A DNA stretch of 64,000 bases from contig JADNRY010000262.1 in the NCBI GenBank assembly GCA_015501585.1, forward strand, positions 1 through 64,000, read 5' to 3'. The notes under the pieces are model-generated. The model searched no databases and was not told the DNA's origin. It saw only the letters and a program-made list of their open reading frames with translations. The stretch is from Rhodocollybia butyracea. Lineage: Eukaryota; Basidiomycota; Agaricomycetes; Agaricales; Omphalotaceae. Both the position numbers and the translations under genes were made by a program. This document shows positions 1-54,740 of this stretch, in pieces (position 1 is the stretch's first letter; every line of letters starts with the position of its first letter).

Positions 1-2214
1 TTCTGAGTGGCCTCTGATTCCAACCACCAACCTTCACCAGCCCTGGTCCCTCACTGCCAAGCTCATAAGTAAAGATGTCCACGAGTCCGAGTTATCCGCA
101 GGTACTCGCAGGTATGACCGTGAGAATACTCGCAGGTATGTCTACCTGCGGATCCAGGTATCCGTTTCCCACGGATCCGTACAGGTCACGGGTATCGATC
201 CAAGCAAATTTGTGCTACCTGCAGGTATTTGTGGGGAGGGCAAGAATAAATTTTTTTCGCTCAAATAACAGCTGGAATATGCTCTCCACTATGCACTAGA
301 CCTTGTCTGAGCAGCTCATCTGTCCACCTAGCATGTAGCAAGTTCCAAGTGGCTATATGCACTGTTGTACACTATACAATCATGATGAATATAGTCCCTC
401 TTCAACTTCAGTGACTTGTATCACTCAAGGACCACTGTTCTCTACCCACATTGTACTCTATTCTACATACTAAGCACCTACTAAGTGTCTCACACTCATA
501 CCTTGCATGTAGTAGCCACTTCACTATTCTTGTAAGTACTAAATACTTGCAGGTATTCACAAGTAACTTGTGAGTACCTGTGTTCACTGGGATCCGCAAG
601 TACCCGCAGGTACCTGCGTTAAAATACCTGCGGATCCCGGTATCCGTTTCCCACGGATCCGTGCGGGTCACGGGTAGCCCCTTGGGCCCACAGGTACCTG
701 CGCAATGGATCCGGGTTTACCTGGATCCGGACTCGTGGACATCTTTTCTCATAACCTGTGTTAGAATAAGTGCACTAAGTATACAGCTCTGCTGGCATGT
801 AACCGGTTACATGGCAGAGCTGCATAGTGCACTTATTCTAACAGGCTGTCACTGACCATCACTGATCCTAGGCCTTCAGACTGTCTCGTACAAAATAATG
901 AAGGCAAGTTGGAGGCTCGAATGGTCAACCTGGTTACAACTTACAAGCACTTAGCAGTCCAAGCTGCATGTTCTAACCACTCTGCTATTAGCACCTGATA
1001 AACAAGTAATGTTTATTGTATGGTATCTGTACTGTCTGTGTAGTGTACTGACTAGCAGTTGCAGTATCTATCACAGTAACAATTACCAATGACTCTTGAT
1101 GTAACTGAACATTGGTGAGGATTCTGGCTGCCGTTGGTTTGACACTTGCACAAGTCAATGTTGTCAATGCTGTCAGCAAATATTGGTGTGTACTGGGACT
1201 TCCAGCGATTTGTGAAGCTGTTGGACTGACTGTCGCTGTTTTGCAGTCTAATCTGTCACATAGCATCACTCGCGATGTACTTACTCTGAGTGTGTTGTAA
1301 ATAATTTTCCTGGGCTTGTTTCGTGTATCAAATGCCTGGTGACTCAATTCCAAGTATCAGACTATAAAGATGCACTTCCCTGGGTGCCAATCACTTTGTC
1401 ATATGCTCCAATGAAAACCTAGTAGGGGGCAAATATGTATATTACTCTGAGTGTATGAGATGCTTGGAAAGTGTGTGAAACAGTTTCATTTTGGCACTGG
1501 GTAGAGTCAGAAGATTGACAAGATGTTGTATCCTGAGTTCCTCCTCTGCTGATTGGTTTTGGTGGCACATTACTTGCTGCACTCCAGGAAAAGGGATGCA
1601 GTGGATCTGGTTAAAGCAAGCCTGGTGTAGATGGCACACAAGTCTCCCACAAGATACAATTCCACACTGCTCTTGAAGGGCAAGATCAGCGACAACACCA
1701 ATGAGAATCAGCACCAATACCAGAGATTGTCAGTGAGAGTCAGGAGCAGGGGCCAGCCACAACCCACCAGCACTTGAGCCCAGCGGCCGCCGACAATTGC
1801 CAATGGTCATTGATGACCAGGATTGACTTTTCCTGGTCCACATATAAAACTCTGGAAGGAGCATGGTTTAGAGAGGTGTAGTGTGTGTTGAGTGCATTTT
1901 CAGCCATCATGTGACTCGGCTCTATTTTCCGGTGATCCGGCCCAAACAGAGTTTAACATTTTTAGCATGTAGGCAAAGGATTACGGCACGTGATGTAATT
2001 TTACTTGGCATTTCAAGGGGAAACCTTTAAAGTTTTCCCCAAAATTCAAAGTTTTATGGGGGGACCTTTTAAGTTTTCCGGGAAATTCAAAGTTTTACGG
2101 GGACATTTTGAAGTTTTCCGGGAAGACCAAAGTTTATGGGGGAGGCATTTTAAAGTTTTCCTGGCAGGTGAAAGTTTACAGGGGGCCTAATTTTTGTGCA
2201 ACTTGAACAGCATA
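1..2214. mobile_element. Foldback-type element C, copy 1 (left end outside window)
   Basis: This is the right part of a large non-coding element. It matches 45121-47117 almost base for base, apart from the MITE at 70-747 and a palindrome present only in the second copy. The right end is a 300-bp block of degenerate repeats of the type AAAGTTTTCCGGGAAATTC and AAAGTTTACGGGG, finishing at GAACAGCATA (2214). The complete second copy (43903-47117) begins with the inverse of this end. ORFs at 988-1353 and 1442-1717 are conserved between copies only because the DNA is; they have no recognisable domain. The superfamily is unassigned. Confidence 0.75.
70..747. mobile_element. hAT-like MITE V, copy 1 (678 bp)
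   Basis: The terminal inverted repeat begins TAAAGATGTCCACGAGTCC and returns inverted at 729-747. It is flanked by an 8-bp duplication, CTCATAAG (62-69) and CTCATAAC (748-755). The homologous locus at 45182-45190 lacks the element and has one copy of the target, so the boundaries are base-accurate. Eight-bp duplications and a TA-starting inverted repeat point to hAT transposition. The interior is non-coding, with repeated words around GGTACCTGC and CCCACGGATCC near both ends. Other copies or relatives lie at 34299, 43479 and 55225. Confidence 0.9.
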
Positions 2215-2301
2215 CATTTGTGGGGCAAGCTAACACTAATGTTTGGTACATACTTATGTGGGGCCAGCTAACCTTCCATCAGGACTTGACCCTGAACGCA
2301 G

Positions 2302-2308
2302 TATAAAA
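2302..2308 (+). promoter_or_regulatory. TATA box for the DUF6532 remnant
   Basis: TATAAAA lies 92 bp upstream of the likely start codon at 2400 and is followed by a pyrimidine-rich leader, as expected for a basidiomycete promoter. The gene downstream is broken, so this is a relic promoter at best. Confidence 0.5.
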
Positions 2309-2399
2309 AGGTGCGTGACCTCTTTGTTTGTTCTCTTTCTTTTGTTTCAACCACCACCGCTCTTTTATTTCTGTTTCTTATTTTGCTCTTAAACAAAAA

Positions 2400-5349
2400 A
2401 TGCCTGCATGTATGTTTTTTTTCATTCTGTGAGGTTGTTTCTATTACTAACTTCTCTTCACTTCAAGCTACTGCAAACAATAAAAAACCTGGTATGTATC
2501 ACTTGACACATTTTCTTTCCTTTTTCTCATTTGTTTGTAGCCCCTCGTTTGACTCGCTCTCAAGCTGCTGCCCCAACCCGCACAGCAGCTAATGGAAAGC
2601 CTGGCAGCAAGACTTTGAAGGTCAAGGCTCTGGCGCCAGTCACTGCATCTACTCAGGCCGAGCTTTGATCTGCATGAGTTCAGCAGAAGCAAAAGGCCAA
2701 GGCTGCCAAAAAAGCCCAAGAAGCCAAGGCACAAGGTATGTTTTCTTTTTTTGTTTTGTTGACCTCGCTAACAACCTTCAATGCTTCTTAGAGATTCATG
2801 AACATGCCAAGGCCATGCCCAAAGCTGAGCAAGATGACAATGAAGATGCGGACCCTGACTTTTATGGCCAGGGTGATGATGACCTTGATGGCCATCATAC
2901 TGGCATATCCCCTGCCCCTCTTGATCAGGGGGAGGGTCCTGATCTCTATGACCAGGATCCTGATGCAGTTGTCTTCAAGGATTCTCTCTGCGGTAGGTTC
3001 TTACTTCCTTTTCTTATATCTTTTGGTAAACTATGCTATATAGATGGTGGATATGGCTCTGACAATGAGCCCCGCTGCAATGAGGACAACGATGACAATA
3101 TGGGGGCTGCAATGGGCTATGCAAATGACAATGAGATGGATGTTGATGATGCACCTACCAACAATGCAAGTACCATTTTATTTATTTATTTATTTTGTGT
3201 TTCCTACCAAGAAGGCCATGGAGCATGCTCGCAAGAGGCTAGGACTTTCTAGCTCACCCTCCAGTGCCCAATCTGGCTGCTCTCGCTCTAGCCTCTCTTC
3301 AAACCTCATTACTCCTCCCAGTTGAAGGTTTAACGGCAAAATTACCAACAGTAACTTTATGCCAAATACCGTGCTAGTTGCTTTTGTGAGTGCTGTTTAT
3401 CTTTTGCAAGTCCATAGTTAGCTCACTTTGTTTGTGTTTCAGTTGGGTTATGCCAGAAGTGGTCTTTTCTCTGGTTTTATTAGCAAGGCCCGTGAATGGG
3501 TTCCTAGTTGCTTTGGCATCCCTGGTAAGATGGGCGCCTCTGCTGTCAAGGAGCTAGTCAGTTGGCTTCTTGAGGATGGGAGATTCAAGTATGGTGAGAT
3601 CGACATGCAGGTATTTATATTTCATGTCTTGACATTACCTTTTCTAATCTATCATTACAGGCTCGCGCCTATAATACCAAACTCCCCTTTGGTTGTGAAG
3701 GGATAGAACATATGCTCCGCCTAGAGGTCTTTAAATATTGAAGTATTCAAGGAGATTGTCAAGGCAGGGAAGATCACTGCCCCTACTACCCTTGCACTGA
3801 TGGTTACTTGTGTAAGTTTTCTTTTGTTGTTTAAACATTATACTTATGCTCTTTCATTGAACATGCTCTGGGGGAATATTCAGATGGTGTTTACAGACAT
3901 GCTGAATTTTCTGATTCTGCGAGGCCTAGGTATTTATTTATTCTCTTTCTTTTCTTATCATTCATTATTCATTATTTGTTTAGATATGTTTTTCACCATG
4001 AGAGCTTCAAGAAAATTGAAAAGGGCGCTCGCAACTGGGCCAATAACTTCTCCACTGACTTGTACAAGTTGATCATGTAAGTCACTAGCTGAGATCCTAT
4101 ACTCTAAATAAAGGCGGTTTAGGCGCTCAAATAATTTACATCAGCAGTTCCCGCGCAGCGGCTGCCCGGCACAACCTACTCCTGTTATTCCGGCGGACCG
4201 TTCGTTCAACTTAGAACTTTTTTCATATCAATGATCGCGTTGGATTGTGCAAGCAAATGAGAAATCTGCGTAGCGGCTGTACAAAACCGAAATTATGAAC
4301 ACTACTTATTTCCGCAACCTCAGCGGGTACCAGCAAAGCTGACAACCAGTCGATGCAAACATCTACTCTGTGGCGATGCATCCCATGGAGAATTCAGAGC
4401 CTAGAGGTTGTCCAAGCAATGCTGATCTCCAAACCTACTTAGCTTCTTCAGCCTGCCAGCCTGTGTCACGCCCAAGTGTCCTGCGGCTATCTGTCCACTT
4501 TCGTGTCCAGATCATGTTTAAAAAAGAGCGATTGGAAGAGAAGGACAGGAAAACTAATGTATCACAAGAGAGGAAAAATAAAAACCCATACTTAATTGAA
4601 GAGTCTCTGCCTTTTCTTTAAGTTTTACATTACTATAATACTACTGCTCAATTAATCAGGCAAGTGTTAGTGAAGATAAGTATATGATGTTGTATGTAGA
4701 TTTGAAGGGCCATACTTAAGTTGGGATGATTACACTCAAATTTTTAGAAATACTCCAGAACACTTACCCACTTTGGCCAAACTTTCGCTGAAACTTTGGA
4801 TGCTCAATTTTTCAATTCCAGAGTGATTTCAATGATGTCAATGTCCCTTGACCTGGAGGTACTTACTAGGTAGGCTTCTGCACTGTAATGTATGGGTCAG
4901 ATGAGTCATGACTCCCAATATCCATACTTATACCATATATGCTTTGAAGTGTTCAGTGCATGAGATCTCATGTTGAACCTCAGTGAATTGCACATGGAAT
5001 GCTTATGCCAATGGGTGCTCCAGCTGTATGGCATAAGCCATATCTTACAGTTACGGTGCAGATTCTACTCAAAGAGTCTGAATATATTAATCTCCAAATG
5101 GTTCCAATGAACCAACAATGAACTGTTGTGTCTGCCTCCCGTGACGTAGGCACGGGCTCTTGAAGCTTGTTAATGTATTATATTAATGTTTGCCATAGCA
5201 CCCAATCTAACAAATCATTCCTGCTGGATGTTGAGGCTGATGATATGGAGGAAGTTGATATTGCTGGTCTGGAAAGTGATGCCATTAATAGAGCTGGACC
5301 TGCTTCCCCCTTGCCTTCTTCCTCCCCTCCTCAATCTTCCCCTGTCTAG
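2400..5349 (+). pseudogene. DUF6532 domain protein remnant, copy 1
   Basis: Multi-exon basidiomycete gene. From the ATG at 2400 two short introns (GTATGT...AG) splice into a Ala/Lys-rich N-terminus. Next come an acidic segment (about 2790-3170), a Ser-rich segment with ARKRLGLSSSPSS (about 3210-3320), then the DUF6532 core: LGYARSGLFSGF (3440), AREWVPSCFGIPG, ARAYNTKLPFGCEGIEH (3661), EHALGEYSDGVYRHAEFSD (about 3858) and NWANNFSTDLYKLIM (about 4040). A GTAAGT donor follows at 4078, and an acidic/Ser-Pro C-terminus lies at 5215-5349. It is broken: two in-frame TGA codons near 2666 and 2678, a stop near 3323, a frameshift near 3730, and a 1.1-kb interruption before the last exon. The function of DUF6532 is unknown. 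A second copy lies on the minus strand at 47.4-48.7 kb. Confidence 0.72.
4079..5200. other. Non-coding interruption inside the DUF6532 remnant
   Basis: Begins as an intron (GTAAGT at 4078) but is 20 times longer than the usual 50-bp introns here, so at least one element probably inserted in it. No terminal repeats or coding similarity were recognised. The 83-codon ORF at 4370-4621 has no support. Confidence 0.4.
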
Positions 5350-5479
5350 GAAAATATCCACTGTTTATTTATTTTAAGGTAGAATGATCATCATAGTAGT
5401 AGCTAGTGATTCTGCAATATAATGTTGATTTTCACCCATTTTTTTATGATTACGCTCAGTATGGTTGTACTGTGTTGAG

Positions 5480-13493: not shown

Positions 13494-14242
13494 AGCCCGC
13501 CATCAAAGTCACGCAACAGCTCAGGAAGCGCGTGGCGTTCAGGTCAAGGCCGTCACACTACGCCATGTCCGCAGCTCTCAGACTGTAGTTGCAAGCTAGC
13601 CGGCCGTAGCGCCTTGTACTGGTTGAAGTCGCGTGCGGTCTACGTTTCAGCTGATGTATTAGCTTTATTGTAATATTAACTTATTGGTACTGTATTATGA
13701 TATCATTGATAACTCTTGGGGGCAGCTGGACCACCCCCCGGCAGGTGCCAGGGCGCTTAAGCGGCAAGCCCGGCAGCATAGCTAAAACATACTTGCTATG
13801 TACATAAGTGACCAGAAACATGATGTTTGGCCAATCATGGCTGTAAAAGAGTGTATCTGAACTGGTCCTTCTGTGGAATTAAGGACTTGCTGAACATGAA
13901 CATGCTGGTGTTAATGAGATAAGTCCAAAGGTCACTCACTCCATGTTAATATTACTACTTTTGTACAGCTCATTATATTATTGATAATACTACTAGAGTG
14001 AACAGTACATTAAGGGCCATATAGCATGTTCTGAAGTCTGAGAGTGCTTGGGTGCTTGGGTGCTTAAAGGGGAGGAAAATACCTATACTAGTGCCCATAA
14101 TTATACAAATATGAGGCCTCAATCTGTTGCAGCAATGAAATAGTGAATTTTCCTTATTCGGTCATAATACAGCACTGGGAACCTTTTATCCTTCAGGTGA
14201 AAGGTGTATTGGATGCTAAATTTTATGTAGATTCCAGATATT

Positions 14243-14467
14243 AGTATGACTACCCAAGAAATTGTGTAAGTTGTAGCCAAATTACCAAATGTCCGGTCAC
14301 TTATGTACATAGCAAGTAGAGATGGTCTAGAAAGAGTAATTGGATACATAAGAATAGTATGACTACCCAAGAAATTGTGTAAGTTGTAGCCAAATTACCA
14401 AATGTCCGGTCACTTATGTACATAGCAAGTAGAGATGGTCTAGAAAGAGTAATTGGATACATAAGAA
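14243..14467. repeat. Perfect 113-bp tandem duplication
   Basis: The 113 bases from 14243 are repeated immediately from 14356 without a mismatch up to 14467. Part of the unit (GGTCACTTATGTACATAGCA) also occurs inverted at about 13791-13813. A recent duplication. Confidence 0.9.
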
Positions 14468-15650: not shown

Positions 15651-16116
15651 TGAGCATACAAAGTCTACAGCACCTATTGGCAGACTTAAGGGCAGTGGCT
15701 GCCTAGTAGATTGTGTATGTACCAGGGATATCATGAAATTTTAGACCATAGTAATGGTCTTCTAGATCCTATTTTCTGTGAAGATTGAATGGATTTCTTG
15801 AGCTTTGTGATTCAAGTTGGAATGATTGGTTCTTCCAAAATGATTGTCTTGGAAAACTGTTACACTACAAATGACTGTGTTCAAATAGTAGGCACTCTAA
15901 GTGATTGTGTTCCCAAGGCAATCTGTTATGACCCGGATCTAAATCCTATACACCCAATCTTTTTTCTTCTGTAACCAACTATGAACACTATCATTAATAC
16001 TTCTACTTAACATTTTACATTCATTAGTTATTCAACACCATTTGGGTTAATGCTGCACACATTCTTCCAGAACACCAGAATGATCTTTAACAGTCACTGC
16101 ACAGTCTGCACAGTCA

Positions 16117-16440
16117 TGACATCATTCTAGCTCCACAACTATGATGTCATCTTGCTACTCCACAATCATGATGTCATTCCACTGCTCCGCAGTTATGATA
16201 TCACATCACTGCTCCACAGCTATGACATCATTGCATAGCCTCTTTACATCAATGACTCAATATCAGTCATTGCACAGCCAGATATCTGAGTCAACTACGG
16301 TTCCGCATACATGACTCAATATTAGTCATTGCACAGCATTACATAGTCAGACTGACTCATCCGCAGTATTTCCGCAGTTATGACTCAAATCTAGTCATTC
16401 CGCAGCATTTCCTAACTAGTACACATTGCACAGTATATAA
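16117..16440 (+). promoter_or_regulatory. bZIP-site array and TATA box in the LTR
   Basis: Five CRE-like sites (TGACATCA at 16117 and 16223, TGATGTCA at 16142 and 16169, TGATATCA at 16196) are followed by five Gcn4/AP-1-like TGASTCA sites (16253, 16287, 16312, 16353, 16381), then TATATAA at 16434-16440. The order fits a U3 promoter whose transcript would run rightward. The array is conserved in copy 2, with TATATAA at 50042-50048. Binding is inferred from the motifs. Confidence 0.65.
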
Positions 16441-16541
16441 GTAGTCTAGATTTACCAATGTACGTTAGACGTATTATTTTTCTTAAATCCAAACCCCCAC
16501 TTGTTTGCTGTTATCACTTGTGTGAATCACCAGACCAACTC

Positions 16542-16987
16542 ATTGTATCTTGTTGAGCTATCTCCAAGCTACAATACACATTTATACATCTTGTTGAGCT
16601 AACTCCAAGTTGTATCCACTAACATTCACCTGTTGAGCTATCTCCTAGTGAATACTTCTTTAATTGCCACTTGTTGAGCTATCTCCGAGTTGCAACTTCC
16701 TATTACTTGTTGAGCTATCTCCAAGTATTAGACATCACACTCACTATTACTTGTTGAGCTATCTCCGAGTACTAGACACCACACTCACTATTACTTGTTG
16801 AGCTATCTCCGAGTACTAGACACCACACTCACTATTACTTGTTGAGCTATCTCCGAGTATTAGACACCACACTCACTACTACTTGTTGAGCCATCTCCAA
16901 GTATTAGTTCTGATTCATATTACTGCTTGTCGAGCCATCTCCGAGGGTAATCTTATTATTATTTGTCGAGCTATCTCCAAATAATAA
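16542..16987 (+). repeat. Tandem array of 11 stem-loops with a near-constant loop
   Basis: Eleven units, each with a 12-base loop of the type TTGAGCTATCTC between self-complementary arms. Arm pairs include ATTGTATCTTG/CAAGCTACAAT (unit 1), ATACATCTTG/CAAGTTGTAT (2), TTGCCACTTG/CGAGTTGCAA (4), CTATTACTTG/CAAGTATTAG (5) and TTATTATTTG/CAAATAATAA (11, perfect). The stem bases differ between units while pairing is kept with 0-2 mismatches or G-U pairs; units 3 and 10 are weaker. The array starts about 100 bp after the TATA box, so it should lie in the transcript leader. Confidence 0.85.
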
Positions 16988-17284
16988 CTTCTGTGAGTTT
17001 CGTATTACAAACTAGTTACTAACTTTACTTGAGCCTAGTTGTTTGAGTATATATTTTTTGCCTAGCGGTTTCATCAAACAGAAAGGCTTGCTCTATAATC
17101 TCCATTAATTTCTCTTATCATTTTTACTGCCGAGTTACGTACTGTGAAGGTTTGGACGAGACTATTGATCGAGTCATAACACAATCCAAATGATTCTCTT
17201 AATAGTTGGGCACTCTAAATGATTGTTTTTTCAAAAAGTGATTGTTTTTACTTTCCATAGTGAGGTATTGTAAATCAAGAAGAC

Positions 17285-18809
17285 CTACTTTATATTATTG
17301 AGTTCATGCACCTCTGATGCAGCCATCATAACATGATCCTCGGTTACAACAACTTGTTCTTCGGTGACAAAAATATAATTCGGAGGCACAACGATCTTCT
17401 GATGCTCTTTGGATTGTGGAAATATCTTCATTTGTTCAACTCTCAAGTAGAGGCGGCACGTGACGCAGTTGATCAATGCCCATGAAAAACTGTTGCAAAA
17501 TACGGGTTAAGTGAACTCTATTCAAGATGCAATCAAGTACTGACAAGAATCCAACAATCATGAACGCAGTCTGATGGAAGATCAGCATACAACCAGTCCC
17601 AGTATGTGCCACAGCTTACGTTGGGGAGAGCAGATAATACAAGATTGAGAACTCGGGCCACTGTCATGAGGATCAGTTATATATGTATAACTGCCCTATC
17701 GCAAATCCCAACACGCACAGAAAAGGGTCTGGAGACTAATGAGACTTAGCATTAGGCTAAACAGTGTTTCACTCACCATCAGGAGCATACCTCCATCCCG
17801 GTTGAAATCAGAAAGGAGTTTAACATGCACCGCTCGGGGCCGATTCACGGCATTGAGTAAGATCAAAGGGGCGAGATACAGGTCAAACGCTATCTAACAA
17901 ACTTGTCTTGTTATTGTTTCTGTCTAGATCGAATCCAGCAAACCTGCGAGGCCCATATGCCCGGCCAAAGCTTAGGCTTCTCACTGATAAGACATGTATG
18001 GTAGGGGGCGGGATCATAACTGATAGCATTCGGATTTGCTTTGTAGAATTTTGGTCAATTGTTTAGGACTTGGAATAATGGGCATACCAAGGATAGAATG
18101 AAGGCATGCAGCCGTAAACCCAACAGTAGCCCCGTACCCGAGCAAAAACCCAACCAACAAGAGATGAAGAATGGGTCTACGATGATCCCAAAGCACATAA
18201 ACGTGTTTGATCATCAGGACTTGAGTGAAGTGTGATCATATCAGTCGAGCTACACATGAGTGAAAAAAGACACATACATTGACACAACCCCAGAGTCAAT
18301 ACACCCAATATTGATTCAAAGATTACCCAGTCAGTGCAGCTGGAATAGATGAGGGAGAGTTATGATTTTCATTCTACTGTCTCACAACTTTGAAATGACA
18401 ATTAGTATCTGGAAAGCTTGAACACTGAATGACTCACTGTATTGGTAACATTTGTAGAGCCACCACTCATAACTAGAATGCAAGCAGTTAGAGATGGAGT
18501 CATCGACTGTGAGCCTCTTAAGACAAACCATATGCCCCCAGTATTTGACATCCCAAAACTCCATATCTCACAAACAGAAATATGAAATTGGGACCTGTCA
18601 TAGGCTTGGCCCAAATCAACTCGATCTCACTACCAATGGTAAGCAAATGATCATAAACAAGGATACCAATGCCTATTGCTAAGATCCAGGGTCAGATTCA
18701 AGGTCTGCTACAAGAAGTGGCACTGTATTGTACCTGTGAGATAGCGTTGCGCAAGAAGAGGAACAGCTACGCTGGGCGAGGTTAGGGTTTCCATTGATAC
18801 AATATCCAT
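17285..18809 (-). CDS. DUF6533-type multi-pass membrane protein
   Basis: Spliced host gene. The ATG at 18809 opens exon 1 (to 18734); exon 2 (18678-18529) carries the hallmark of the DUF6533 N-terminus, ILVYDHLLTIGSEIELIWA, then FLFVRYGVLGCQ. Later exons hold EWWLYKCYQYSESFS (about 18465), a transmembrane exon with HVYVLWDHRRPILHLLLVGF and LLGYGATVGFTAACL (about 18210-18060), FDLYLAPLILLNAVNRPRAV (about 17865) and a hydrophilic tail ending at the TAG at 17285. Introns are about 50-100 bp with GT-AG ends. Such proteins are basidiomycete-specific, probably seven-helix membrane proteins of unknown function. No stop was found inside the exons read; some internal junctions are approximate. Confidence 0.75.
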
Positions 18810-36450: not shown

Positions 36451-38805
36451 AAGCCTATCGATCCAAGTACAGATGAACCAATATGGGTCATCTGTGATGC
36501 CTCCATATCAGGAGTAGGTAGGATGTACAGCCAAGGCCCTACTTGGCAGATGTGTAGACCTGCCAGATTTATGTCCCCCAAATTCATAGCTGCACAACAT
36601 AATTATAGAGTCTTTGAATTGGAGACTCTTGCCATCCTTAAAGCTCTTCTCAAATGGGAAGATAAACTTCTTGGATATTGTATTCATGTGGTCACTGACC
36701 ACAAAGCATTAGAATTCCTCCTTACACAAAGGAAGCTCTCAAGTCATCAAGCACGCTGGATAGAATATCTATCCAGGTTTGACTTCAATATTGTTATATC
36801 AAAGGTATAACAAACAAAGTAGCGGAAGCTACTACGAGTCCAATATGCCTAATGAACATCATGAGGCACATGAATATGTCAATGCGGATATTTGCATTGA
36901 CTGAAATCTTGAAAATGTTCCGCAAGGAAGAATTGAAGAATTAGTTAGCGAGCATCTTGCTAACATGAATACTTGCCAAATTACTAGGCTTCTACAAAAG
37001 CAGAAGCCAGCAAATCCCATTGCAGAGACTGTAGAGTCTCACAACACTGAAGCAGCAGAATTACAATCTGCTGTTAAGGAAAAGGAACCAACAGTTCCTG
37101 TTCCCAATACTACTGAAGAAGATATTACTATCTTCAACTCTTGTGCAAGAGGTGAAGAACCTCTTACTAGTCACCCTGAAGGGGGTGGTTTTGTGAGGGG
37201 CGTTAAGTGTTGTTAGGCTAAGGATCCTTTATTCTTAAAGGTGCTCAATAATCCTGAGCACCATAAGCCATTCTCAGTCAAGAATGGCCTTATCTATACT
37301 GTAAACAGAGGCAAAGAAAAAGTTCTTTGCATTCCTAATGGTAAAACCGTTAAAGGACAGAGCCTGAGAGGTATAATCGCCAAACAAGCTCATGAAGTGT
37401 TAGGACACTTTGGAGGTCAAAGAACCTCCAATTACATCCATCAATGGTACTGGTGGCCAAGGGTCAACCATAACATTGAAAAACTTTGTAAGGCATGCAT
37501 TGAATGTCAATGCAGCAAAACTAGTAATAGGATGCCAACTGGCCTCCTACATACACCACCAATACCCATGAGACCATGGGAATCAATTGGAATGGACTTC
37601 ATGGGTCCATTCCCTGAATCACAAGGATACAACTACCTTTGGGTAGTCATCTGTCGATTAACTTCACAGGTACATGTAATACCTGTAAAGACAGCAATAA
37701 CTGCAATGCAGTTATCATGGATCTACATTAAGGAGATTGTAAGACTTCACAGATTACCAAAGTCTATAGTCTCTGATAGAGACCCGAAGTTTACCTCACA
37801 CTGGTGGCAGCTCAGTCACCCAACTTATTAGTCTTATTAGTCTACACTTTTGTTAAATTGACCTGACTAAAAAGAGTCAAAATCCCTGGCAAATCCAAGT
37901 TGCCTTGGTCATGTCCAGGGGGGCTTAGTCATGCCCAGGGAAGTAGGTCATGTCCAAGCAAGTAGGTCATGACCTGGTCCCCTGGGTCAAGTTGGTCATG
38001 ACCAGGGGTAGAATAGGGTATGCCCTGGGAGGGATAGGATACCTTGTGGGGGGGGACCTGTTGCAAGGGGTGTGGAACATCCAGGGTAGGAGTAGGGGAT
38101 GCAGTGGGAGTGACAGAGGGGGACTAGAGGGTGCTAAGGGACTCGGAGGAGTAGGGGATGCTTGGGAAGGGGTATAAAATGCTTTGGGAGAGATGTCAGC
38201 CTGCAGAGTAGAGTAAGATGCTGTGGGAGAGATGTCAGTTTGCACATGAAGTGTGGGGGAGTGTTCCAATGAGCTAATTGCAGGCACATGGGGCATTGGG
38301 GAGAGAAAAGAAGCTGCTGGCTCATGCTGACTTGAATCTGACCAAGGACAACTTGGACATGACCAGGGTTATTTGAACTTGCCGAGGGGGAGGGCTTCTA
38401 AGCTATTTCCCAAGTTCATTGGTCCATACCCCATTATTGAGGTACACAAGGACTCCTCAAATTATCGAGTAGGTCTGCCAACAGAGTTGGCTAAGCATGG
38501 AATTTATAACAATTTCCATGCAATTCTATTGCAAAAGATTCATCCGAACAGTGATGCACTCTTGCCTATGCATTCCGTTGCAGAACATACAACTTCAGAG
38601 AGCCTTCCACTGTGGAATGGCTCGTTGACAAGATAATCGACCATCATTGGAATGGTTCAAAACTCATGTTCCAAGTCAAATGGAACCTAGGCAATATCAC
38701 CACCGAAACCACAATGATTGTAAGGATCTAGCAGCTCTAGACAGATATCTAGAACTACAAGCAGTAGATGACTGGTGTCATCTACCGCGAATGCAGAATT
38801 AACAG
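36451..38805 (+). pseudogene. Ty3/gypsy RNaseH-integrase-chromodomain remnant
   Basis: 3' part of a chromovirus-type pol. RNaseH is at about 36451-36810 with EPIWVICDASISGVG, FELETLAILKALLKWEDKL and VVTDHKALEF. A spacer with frameshifts and a TAG at 37213 follows. Integrase is at 37241-37831: zinc-finger H(x4)H...CIEC (AHEVLGHFGG to ACIECQC), then the catalytic core with MDFMGPFP and VSDRDPKFTS. The rest of the core is lost where a foreign segment (37810-38370) begins. The integrase C-terminus is at 38373 (KLFPKFIGPYPIIEV) and a chromodomain-like end at about 38598 (EWLVDKIIDHHWNGSKL, QVKWNLGN), with a 1-bp frameshift near 38710. Reverse transcriptase, gag and LTRs were not found; element B abuts the 5' break. 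Confidence 0.88.
37810..38370. mobile_element. Insert O replacing part of the gypsy integrase
   Basis: GC-richer segment with inverted ends from 37884 (CCCTGG...TCCAAGTTG) to 38368 (CAACTTGGACATGACCAGGG) and repeated GGTCATG(T/A)CC words. It sits where about 150-200 integrase residues should be, so it replaced rather than simply interrupted them. No target duplication was found. Confidence 0.5.
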
Positions 38806-49531: not shown

Positions 49532-50746
49532 TGTTATGACCCGGATCTAAATCCTATACACCCAATCTTTTTTCTTCTGTAACCAACTATGAACACTATC
49601 ATTAATACTTCTACTTAACATTTTACATTCATTAGTTATTCAACACCATTTGGGTTAATGCTGCACACATTCTTCCAGAACACCAGAATGATCTTTAACA
49701 GTCACTGCACAGTCTGCACAGTCATGACATCATTCTAGCTCCACAACTATGATGTCATCTTGCTACTCCACAATCATGATGTCATTCCATTGCTCCGCAG
49801 TTATGATATCACATCACTGCTCCACAGCTATGACATCATTGTATAGCCTCTTTACATCAATGACTCAATATCAGTCATTGCACAGCCAGATATCTGAGTC
49901 AACTACGGTTCCGCATACATGACTCAATATTAGTCATTGCACAGCATTACATAGTCAGACTGACTCATCCGCAGTATTTCCGCAGTTATGACTCAAATCT
50001 AGTCATTCCGCAGCATTTCCTAACTAGTACACATTGCACAGTATATAAGTAGTCTAGATTTACCAATGTACGTTAGACGTATTATTTTCTTAAATCCAAA
50101 CCCCCACTTGTTTGCTGTTATCACTTGTGTGAATCACCAGACCAACTCATTGTATATTGTTGAGCTATCTCCAAGTTACAATACACATTTATACATCTTG
50201 TTGAGCTAACTCCAAGTTGTATCCACTAACATTCACCTGTTGAGCTATCTCCTAGTGAATACTTCTTTAATTGCCACTTGTTGAGCTATCTCCGAGTTGC
50301 AACTTCCTATTACTTGTTGAGCTATCTCCAAGTATTAGACATCACACTCACTATTACTTGTTGAGCTATCTCCGAGTACTAGACACCACACTCACTATTA
50401 CTTGTTGAGCTATCTCCGAGTACTAGACACCACACTCACTACTACTTGTTGAGCCATCTCCGAGTACTAGTTCTGATTCATATTACTGCTTGTTGAGCTA
50501 TCTCCGAGGGTAATCTTATTATTATTATTTGTCGAGCTATCTCCAAATAATAACTTCTGTGAGTTTTGTATTACAAACTAGTTACTAACTTTACTTGAGC
50601 CTAGTTGTTTGAGTATATATTTTTTGCCTAGCGGTTTCAACGAACGGAAAGGCTTGCTCTATAATCTCATTAATTTCTCTTATCATTTTTACTGCCAAGT
50701 TACGTACTGTGAAGGTTTGGACAAGACTATTGATCGAGTCATAACA
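49532..50746. mobile_element. Solo LTR, copy 2 (1215 bp)
   Basis: TGTTATGAC...GTCATAACA with target duplication AGTAC (49527-49531 and 50747-50751), inserted 15 bp inside element F. It carries the same bZIP-like array and TATATAA (50042-50048). The hairpin array (about 50149-50553) has 10 units instead of 11; the 43-bp length difference to copy 1 equals one unit. Confidence 0.93.
50149..50553 (+). repeat. Tandem array of 10 stem-loops, copy 2
   Basis: Same organisation as at 16542-16987. Unit 10 here has the standard loop TTGAGCTATCTC where copy 1 has a two-base variant. The last unit again pairs TTATTATTTG with CAAATAATAA. Confidence 0.85.
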
Positions 50747-52523: not shown

Positions 52524-54740
52524 AGAGCTCCCCTTGTTGCTGCTGGCAAGGATGGCATTTAAATGACCAGTGCAAATGGTGAAGTTCGACGTGTCCATCC
52601 CATCCTTGCCAGTTATGTTGCCGACCTCCCAGAACAATGCCTGGTAGTCTGCTGCAAGTACGGAACATGTCCTAAATGTAGAGTGTCTTCAGACAAACTA
52701 GGCGAGAAGGCTCCCTCTGAGAGGAGAATGCAGACATGGATGTTGGGGGTGATGAGCAAGGCACGTGAATCTGCTACATCAGGTGCTCAATACTTTGAGA
52801 CCTGTATGAACCAAGATGTTTCTGGTTATGTCTATCGCCCTTTCTGGGATGAGTTACCCCTCACCAATATCCACCTCAGCATTACTCCTGATGTCCACCA
52901 TCAGCTATATCAAAGTGTCCTCAGACACTTCATCACTTGGTGTCAAAAGGTCCTCAAGGATGACAAACTTGACTGTTGCATCTGCTGCTTACCTCCGTTG
53001 TCTGGTGTCTGTCACTTTTAAAAGGTATCTCAACTCTTACTCAGATTAGCGGTTCTGAGGACAAGAACATAGGCAAAATTCTTTTGGGATGCCTTCTTGG
53101 GTCCAATATGCCCAATGGTGCCTTGACTGCTGTTCATGCAATTCTTGATTTCATATATCTTGCCCAGTACTCCCATCATGACAATGCTACCCTTGAATAC
53201 ATGCAGGATGCCCTTAATACCTGGCATAAGCATAGAGATTGCTTTATTGCCTTGGAGATTTGCAAGCACCTAAAAATTCCAAAATTGCACTCACTTCAAC
53301 ACTACATCCAATCCATACACTTATTTGGCACTACTGATAATTACAAACACTGAGATGTTCGAACATCTCCATATTGATTTTGCAAAGAAAGGTTGGAGAG
53401 CATCTAATAAACGGGATGAGTTTCCCCAAATGACATGCTGGCTTTCTCAACAGGAGAATGTGCAGCCATTCAATCATGAGCTTTCTTGGATCTTAGATCA
53501 ACAAGCTCTTGCCGCATCATCTTTTTCTACAACCTCTTCTCCTCCCTTGTCTAAGCCATCTCCTCCACTCTCTATTCTCCTTCCCAAAGTCCCCACTGCT
53601 CCCAACAAACAACTTCAAGCCATCAAAAAAACACATCATGTCCCGTTATTCTCACAGCATCTCAAAATGCTTAAGGGCCTGTTTGGCAACACAAATCTGG
53701 ATTTTGTGTGATTTTGCCAGAGGCAAGATCTTGAAGACTTATATAAAATGTTCGGATCAGCTGGCCGGTTGCGATGACTCTGGAAATGTCATAAAATGAC
53801 ATAACTCCTGCCCTGACATGTTGGACATTCCTCTCGCTGTCCCGCAAGTCGTCCTGACCACTCTCAACAATGCCACCCAGTGACCAACATGTTCTGGTCA
53901 TCATCTTTCAAGTTTGATGTAATTGTATATTATTGTTAAAGTGATTTTATTCCTCTATATTGTCTAAGCAAGTGAAACCTAAAGTAAAAACTACATTTGA
54001 GAGCGGCGGGCATGTCTGAGCATTGAGTGGGGTGTTGACCTCAATGTGGAAGAAATGTCTGACAGGCTGTGACACCACACGCGTTTACACGGAGCGCTCA
54101 ACTGGCTGATCCGAGTAATACTTACAAATGCTTGATGGCTTTTTTATATGGTGGCAATACCTGGCAAAATCCCAACAAAATCTGAGATTCATGTTGCCGA
54201 ACAGGCCCTAAACCTGAAGCAACTAATGCTACAGTTCAAGCAGCTGTGACCCAGGATTTACCCTTTCAATGTTTGGATATTTATTACTTGTTCAAATTTG
54301 CGCCAGAGCAACTGGAAGAAGGTGTCAATATGAAGGACATCGTAAAAGCTTCACCATTAAATGGTGGTAGGTTCAACACAGTAATTTTTTTAAACCAGCA
54401 ATGAGGCTGAAAGTGTTGGCCTTGAAGGTGAGTGATGTATATTAATATTAATTGATTTTATGTCAATAACTATTGTCTATTCTCCAGGTACTCGAATAGG
54501 ACGTGTCAAGATTGTTTTTCATCTACCTACTGATTTATGTCTTATTGGCTCCCATAAGAGACCAGTGCCCAAGGTCTGGCCCCGAACTGCTCTTGCCTAC
54601 ATTCAATGGTTTACTGCACCAACGTTATCGGCAAATGCACACACCACTCACAACATGGCCTCTGTACAAAAACCTAAGCCAAATCGTTCTGATAACTCAC
54701 CTCCTTGGTCAATTATACCATTGTCCAACATACGCCATGT
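52524..54740 (+). pseudogene. Plavaka-type transposase remnant
   Basis: Collinear with Plavaka-family transposases of Agaricomycetes: RRVHPILASYVADLPEQCLV (52590), CKYGTCPKCRVS, YRPFWDELPLTNIHLSITPD (52833), VHHQLYQSVLRHFITWC, then in another frame DKNIGKILLGCLLG (53063), AILDFIYLAQYSHHD, FIALEICKHLKIPKLHSLQH (53252), a frameshift at about 53345, and HIDFAKKGWRASNKRDEFPQ (53370). A Ser/Pro linker is interrupted by MITE R (53675-54208). The C-terminus has RVKIVFHLPTDL and ALAYIQWFTAPTLSANAHTT (54490-54620) and SIIPLSNIRHV (54705), where direct repeat S1 begins. Frameshifts make it non-functional. Confidence 0.85.
53675..54208. mobile_element. PIF/Harbinger-type MITE R, copy 1 (534 bp)
   Basis: GGGCCTGTTTGGCAACACAA...GCCGAACAGGCCC with TAA on both sides (53672-53674 and 54209-54211), inserted in the Plavaka remnant. 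Confidence 0.9.

Follow-up and report, generated by a model that had tools for sequence, protein, structure and literature searches.

Hairpins in a retroviral leader are familiar from HIV, where they make up TAR and the psi packaging region, and LTR elements that are non-autonomous and carry gag only have been described as TR-GAG. To our knowledge it is poorly understood by what means self-primed LTR elements select their genomic RNA and how the primer at the RNA 5' end is brought to a PBS hundreds of bases away. Tf1 and Tj1 are such self-primed elements, in which, as stated in the available parts of two papers, priming is by the 5' end of the RNA itself (PMC4600332, PMC10085805). In Tnt1 and in retroviruses tandem repeats of the LTR are located in U3 and act in transcription, according to the accessible part of the source (PMC3601003). 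Here we describe a family of fungal LTR elements with a row of tandem hairpins in what is predicted to be a self-primed leader.

The window, by which the whole analysed stretch of 64,000 nucleotides is meant (Rhodocollybia butyracea contig JADNRY010000262.1, positions 1 to 64,000, forward strand), contains two LTRs with such a row. The features are, all on the + strand:

15924..17181, +, solo LTR 1 with the ends TGTTATGAC...GTCATAACA and a 5-bp target-site duplication CAATC on its flanks
16117..16387, +, part of U3 containing five sites each of TGAYRTCA and TGASTCA
16434..16441, +, TATA box TATATAAG (motif recognized by eye)
16468..16478, +, LTR 1, predicted start of the RNA with the self-primer GACGTATTATT, which matches the reverse complement of the 11-nt PBS of full-length elements without mismatch
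16468..17181, +, R-U5 portion of the leader, without ATG (0 found, about 9.8 expected)
16542..16987, +, hairpin array of LTR 1, 11 units, loop cores starting at 16553, 16594, 16633, 16674, 16710, 16754, 16798, 16842, 16886, 16930 and 16966
49532..50746, +, solo LTR 2 with the same ends TGTTATGAC/GTCATAACA and a 5-bp target-site duplication AGTAC on its flanks
50076..50086, +, predicted RNA start and self-primer of LTR 2
50149..50553, +, hairpin array of LTR 2, 10 units, loop cores starting at 50160, 50201, 50240, 50281, 50317, 50361, 50405, 50449, 50493 and 50532

Eleven units in the first and ten in the second copy had already been noticed in a sequence-only reading; both counts are correct, and the two LTRs, each of them solo, have the target-site duplications CAATC and AGTAC. 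With up to two mismatches allowed the loop occurs 25 times in the window (5.9 expected; maximum of 100 shuffles 13), and 21 of these 25 matches are array units. In the 95.6-Mb genome the exact loop was found 1949 times, as against 6 times for a reversed control. Upstream of the TATA box, the U3 stretch has five TGASTCA sites where a first-order model predicts 0.17 and five TGAYRTCA sites where it predicts 0.16. TGASTCA is an AP-1/Gcn4-like site, and the U3 promoter may be responsive to a bZIP factor. Elsewhere the window contains a perfect 113-bp tandem duplication (14242–14467), the integrase zinc-binding domain of another LTR element (37217–37831) and a Plavaka transposase fragment (52563–53021, E 3.8e-38), the latter being suggestive of a basidiomycete host.

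Single units have stems of about 10 bp, in most cases with a mismatch or a bulge, and fold with about −6 to −10 kcal/mol; the 12-base loop is able to close further into a short inner stem with a tetraloop. The middle units 5–9 are, as had been noted, duplicates of each other, being 44 nt long and near-identical. For this reason only seven distinct classes, u1–u5 and the last two (p and z), were used in the statistics, the 44-nt duplicates being left out. When only the arms are shuffled, 0.2–2.2% of the versions fold as well as the real unit in five classes, the weakly folding units p and u3 being equalled by 34.9% and 7.8%, respectively. A comparison of positions 15900–17300 with Rfam 15 (4227 models) gave no matches at E up to 1. 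The loop contains AGCU and kissing between loops was therefore considered; this was rejected since the self-duplex of the loop is no better than that of 27% of shuffled loops.

The units analysed belong to 64 distinct arrays. These were taken from the copies that match this LTR best and from the contigs that came first in the list, for which reason old, divergent copies are under-represented. Genome searches with the LTR pieces before and after the array had initially given 356 and 366 candidates, and 40 from each search were scored. On average the seven classes share 91% identity in the loop. For the four inner stem positions the means are 86% and 76%, for the six outer arm positions only 40% and 37%, and for the flanks 44% and 37%. 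The outer arms have thus diverged about as far as their unconstrained neighbours. Nevertheless they pair: with matched outer arms 33 of 42 positions can form a pair, as compared to a mean of 23.0 when the arms are permuted between classes, and only 4 of the 5040 permutations, the true arrangement included, reach this value. If Watson-Crick pairs alone are counted (32 of 42 matched versus 18.6 permuted) or if a one-base bulge is allowed, the score is reached by the true arrangement only. The signal is confined to register 0; in each of six other registers of the 3' arm at least 1092 of the 5040 permutations reach the matched value. The proposal that the arms differ from unit to unit and yet stay complementary through selection on structure thus holds between units. 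Neutral divergence of one duplicated hairpin, which had been named as the finding that would speak against it, fails as an explanation because in that case matched and swapped arms should pair equally well.

It should be noted, however, that the support for the structure of the hairpin units, good as it is, comes from the comparison between units and not from within a unit. Covariation across independent genomic copies, which the sequence-only reading had led one to look for, was not seen: among the copies of any one unit no compensatory change is found in the 54 of the 64 arrays that were tabulated (ten with fewer than seven units or with other spacing were left out), because the copies are too alike. 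Among copies 3 of 60 loop sites, 11 of 100 stem sites and 8 of 35 spacer sites are variable, so that at this level the loop is not clearly more conserved than other sites. Taken together, the presence of one loop on differing but paired stems points to an RNA signal that has been kept by selection.

The position of the arrays is consistent with this. After the LTR, full-length copies have a T and then AATAATACGTC, which is the exact reverse complement of GACGTATTATT; all 11 bases of this PBS are complementary to a site 34 nt after the start of the TATA box at 16434, which is the predicted 5' end of the RNA. We predict the start at 16468 because this arrangement of PBS and self-primer is that of Tf1- and Tj1-like self-primed elements. 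Primer and PBS are 580–800 nt apart, and the array, from 16542 on, is located between them; the earlier statement that it lies in the leader just after a TATA box therefore agrees with the predicted start. From 16468 to the end of LTR 1 there is not a single ATG, as compared to 9.9 expected from shuffles (none of 2000 had so few) or 9.8 from a first-order model. The U3 of LTR 1 contains 15 ATG versus 6.4 expected, the last at 16458, and in LTR 2 the counts are the same (15 in U3, none after the predicted start). CAT, the reverse-strand equivalent of ATG, is not depleted after the predicted start (12 occurrences). In nine distinct full leaders of 610–829 nt an upstream ATG is absent in three; in the other six there is a single one, located 4 nt upstream of the start of gag. 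Depletion of ATG is expected for a 5' untranslated region that is scanned, and the ATG-free zone is therefore independent support for the predicted RNA start. Both this zone and the self-primer match make a transcript start downstream of the array, an outcome earlier named as refuting, unlikely.

Full-length elements in which gag directly follows the array-bearing LTR, also asked for by the sequence-only reading, do exist. In two of them (L085 and L010) a single frame of 749 amino acids with a CCHC motif (recognized by eye) begins directly after the LTR, and there is no pol-sized frame. A third, L009, has a longer internal part, likewise without pol, in which a retrotransposon gag domain is spread over two overlapping frames (of 350 and 796 amino acids, positions 1967–5372); in this copy, whose LTRs are identical, a frameshift, an intron or damage may be the cause. 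The LTR pairs differ at 0 of 1252 positions in L009, 0 of 1345 in L085, 0 of 1125 in L086 and 2 of 1169 in L010. As the pairs are identical or nearly so and the target-site duplications are perfect in three of these four elements (judged by eye), transposition must have been recent. Their arrays have 10 (L009), 13 (L085), 8 (L086) and 9 (L010) units. Two near-copies of the PBS are found in L085 in the 3' non-coding part (about 4400–4450), about 0.55–0.6 kb before the 3' LTR, and related places with 2 mismatches are present in other copies. L017 and L067 were at one time considered as a third type of element but proved to be deletion derivatives: in L017 (1400–1520) the PBS region has been fused to a unit from the array of a second LTR, and in L067 (1960–1995) gag has been fused to the end of U5.

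Thirty-two internal lengths were obtained by pairing 56 PBS places with 41 PPT/LTR places: 15 are 3.4–3.5 kb long, 5 are 4.1–4.2 kb, 4 are 4.9–5.1 kb, 1 is 6.0 kb, 4 are 7.8–8.8 kb and 3 are 9.47–9.50 kb. Domain content was read from pieces (L109 and L111) of one of the three 9.47–9.50-kb cases, C591. RVT_1, RT_RNaseH, Integrase_H2C2, SH3_Tf2-1 and Chromo score above the cut-off and rve just below it (32.1 versus 32.6 bits); reverse transcriptase, RNase H, integrase, the Tf2-1-like SH3 domain and the chromodomain are in open frame. In the leader of C591 the self-primer is the same, there are nine units, and ATG is absent from the predicted start to the PBS. Judged from these sequences, the array-bearing leader is common to a pol-bearing element and to gag-only elements, and the family is best read as a Tf1-like, self-primed chromovirus with non-autonomous gag-only relatives.

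The leader may have been exchanged between subfamilies. L009 and L085, which represent two gag subfamilies, share 69% identity in U3 and 79% over the first 900 nt of gag. In the leader their identity is 98.5%, taken over 680 aligned positions, with 136 columns of gaps that are mostly due to extra units. At the predicted start the differences vanish (0 of 70), and they climb again right after the PBS, so that the segment of high identity is the one copied as strong-stop DNA; in L031 a U3 of the L085 type is joined to an interior of the L009 type. For elements of fission yeast, exchange between co-packaged RNAs at strand transfer is proposed in the available part of the source (PMC4600332 / PMC10085805). 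The near-identity of the two leaders may accordingly result from strong-stop strand transfer between co-packaged RNAs rather than from selection, it being understood that selection on the leader would give high identity as well.

What is the array for? A constant loop, carried on diverged but paired stems and presented many times in an RNA that needs to be packaged, is best explained by a multivalent binding site, and we infer that the array is a cis-acting RNA element inside the self-priming leader, probably for packaging. This inference builds on arrays, arm complementarity, position, self-primer match and shared leader as they are read from the DNA, and on a start and a folding that are predicted; we give the whole account a chance somewhat below even, which is still the highest of all readings. 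The RNA would begin at 16468 and its first 11 bases would pair with the PBS 580–800 nt downstream. In favour of this, the primer is paired with the PBS at 11 of 11 bases in the minimum-energy folds of all nine distinct leaders, 74 of 86 hairpin units being formed (4 of 8 in one leader and 6 of 10 in another). Against it, the mean pairing probability of primer and PBS is 0.08 in one of the nine leaders and 0.68 in another when 60 coding bases are added. The near-constant loops would be bound by Gag or by a host RNA-binding protein and would thus mark the RNA as cargo for particles, and because the number of units is variable, avidity rather than exact geometry would matter. By keeping the long leader compact the hairpins may, in addition, let primer and PBS meet, and through the shared leader the gag-only elements would be able to draw in trans on proteins from the autonomous element. 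A bolder version, in which the copy-number-tolerant row with fixed loop and free stems in a shared self-priming leader is a new packaging code and cargo is chosen by loop multiplicity, appears to us tentative and rather unlikely.

The nearest rival is that the hairpins only shorten the path from primer to PBS and prevent competing pairing, the loop not being a protein site. Indeed, the array is situated between the two, and with 60 coding bases added the mean pairing probability of primer and PBS is at least 0.95 in seven of the nine leaders. Of the Tf1-type pretzel of three duplexes around the PBS, the central duplex is predicted in 9 of 9 minimum-energy folds; for the second there is a candidate, TCCAAACC/GGTTTGGA, found by eye only, and a third was not found in these leaders. 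A purely architectural aid, however, leaves a near-constant 12-base loop on diverging arms unexplained, and we consider it unlikely.

Equally unlikely in our view is that the RNA has no selected function at all, the array being a minisatellite that arose by template slippage and whose arms were matched during reverse transcription by hairpin-templated correction. Such quasi-palindrome correction is known in principle, the unit number varies from 4 to 13 among the 64 arrays, and the near-identical 44-nt units in the middle are recent duplicates. But correction of this type would not conserve the loop and the stems are not perfect, retaining G-U pairs and mismatches. The changes at paired positions that occur in several copies are 4 to G-U, 0 to A-C and 1 other, which also argues against it, the numbers being small, counted per haplotype and not independent (8, 3 and 3, respectively, for changes in a single copy).

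Translational control, in which the row of hairpins slows scanning and the RNA is shared out between translation and packaging, would fit a leader that is free of ATG and has units folding at −6 to −10 kcal/mol each; it does not need a constant loop, and its probability is in our estimate small. Considerably less probable still is an element acting at the level of DNA, whose inverted repeats would be bound by a host factor or form cruciforms. The arms are inverted repeats in the DNA, and the absolute local folding energies of the arrays are nearly equal on the + and − strands. Compared with shuffles, however, local folding (span 45) is better on the + strand (z −5.97 and −5.15; 0 of 200 shuffles as good) than on the − strand (z −2.53 and −2.65; 1 and 2 of 200). 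When the whole array is folded, z is −3.77 on the + strand and −1.45 on the − strand. Within this LTR a good z is not by itself exceptional, since part of U3 likewise beats its shuffles (z −3.08 and −3.57); the depletion of ATG is strand-specific too (0 ATG, 12 CAT), and the array lies exactly within the predicted transcript. Precursors of small RNAs are the least probable reading of all: nothing but the existence of hairpins favours them, and stems of about 10 bp are short for Dicer-type processing.

In this LTR evolution has set loop and stem apart in a natural series of paralogous hairpins, and since there are 8 to 13 units among the four elements with near-identical LTRs, loop number, loop sequence and stem identity are separately testable. 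The shared leader could be the tag by which gag-only elements use an autonomous partner.

Self-priming, gag-only elements and leader hairpins are already known kinds. The new feature is the row of covarying one-loop hairpins inside a self-primed leader, of which we found no example in the literature searched, in Rfam or in viral contigs. The literature search, from which no description of such an array emerged, is weak evidence of absence, most subscription journals having been outside its reach; in viral contigs the 16-base core gave 19 stretches with a single match each, none of them an array. With the LTR repeats of Tnt1 and of retroviruses, so far as the accessible text describes them, the array has in common that tandem repeats are present within an LTR, the difference being that the repeats here follow the predicted RNA start and are structured. 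With TAR and psi of HIV it shares hairpins in the R-U5 leader, and some of the units look like a stem that carries a pyrimidine bulge and a small loop, which is a resemblance only; here there are many near-copies with one loop and in variable number, and we know of no Tat-like partner. Elements of the TR-GAG type likewise have two LTRs around a gag-like frame without pol, whereas in the present case the host is a fungus and self-primer and array are shared with a pol-bearing element. Closest of all are the self-priming chromoviruses of the Tf1/sushi group (Tf1, Tj1), which, in the available parts of the papers describing them, have a PBS complementary to the RNA 5' end, an integrase with a Tf2-1-like SH3 domain and a chromodomain, and LTRs ending in CA (PMC10085805, PMC4600332); what sets the family described here apart from them, so far as those parts go, is that the 580–800 nt between primer and PBS are taken up by consecutive hairpins that all have one loop in common.
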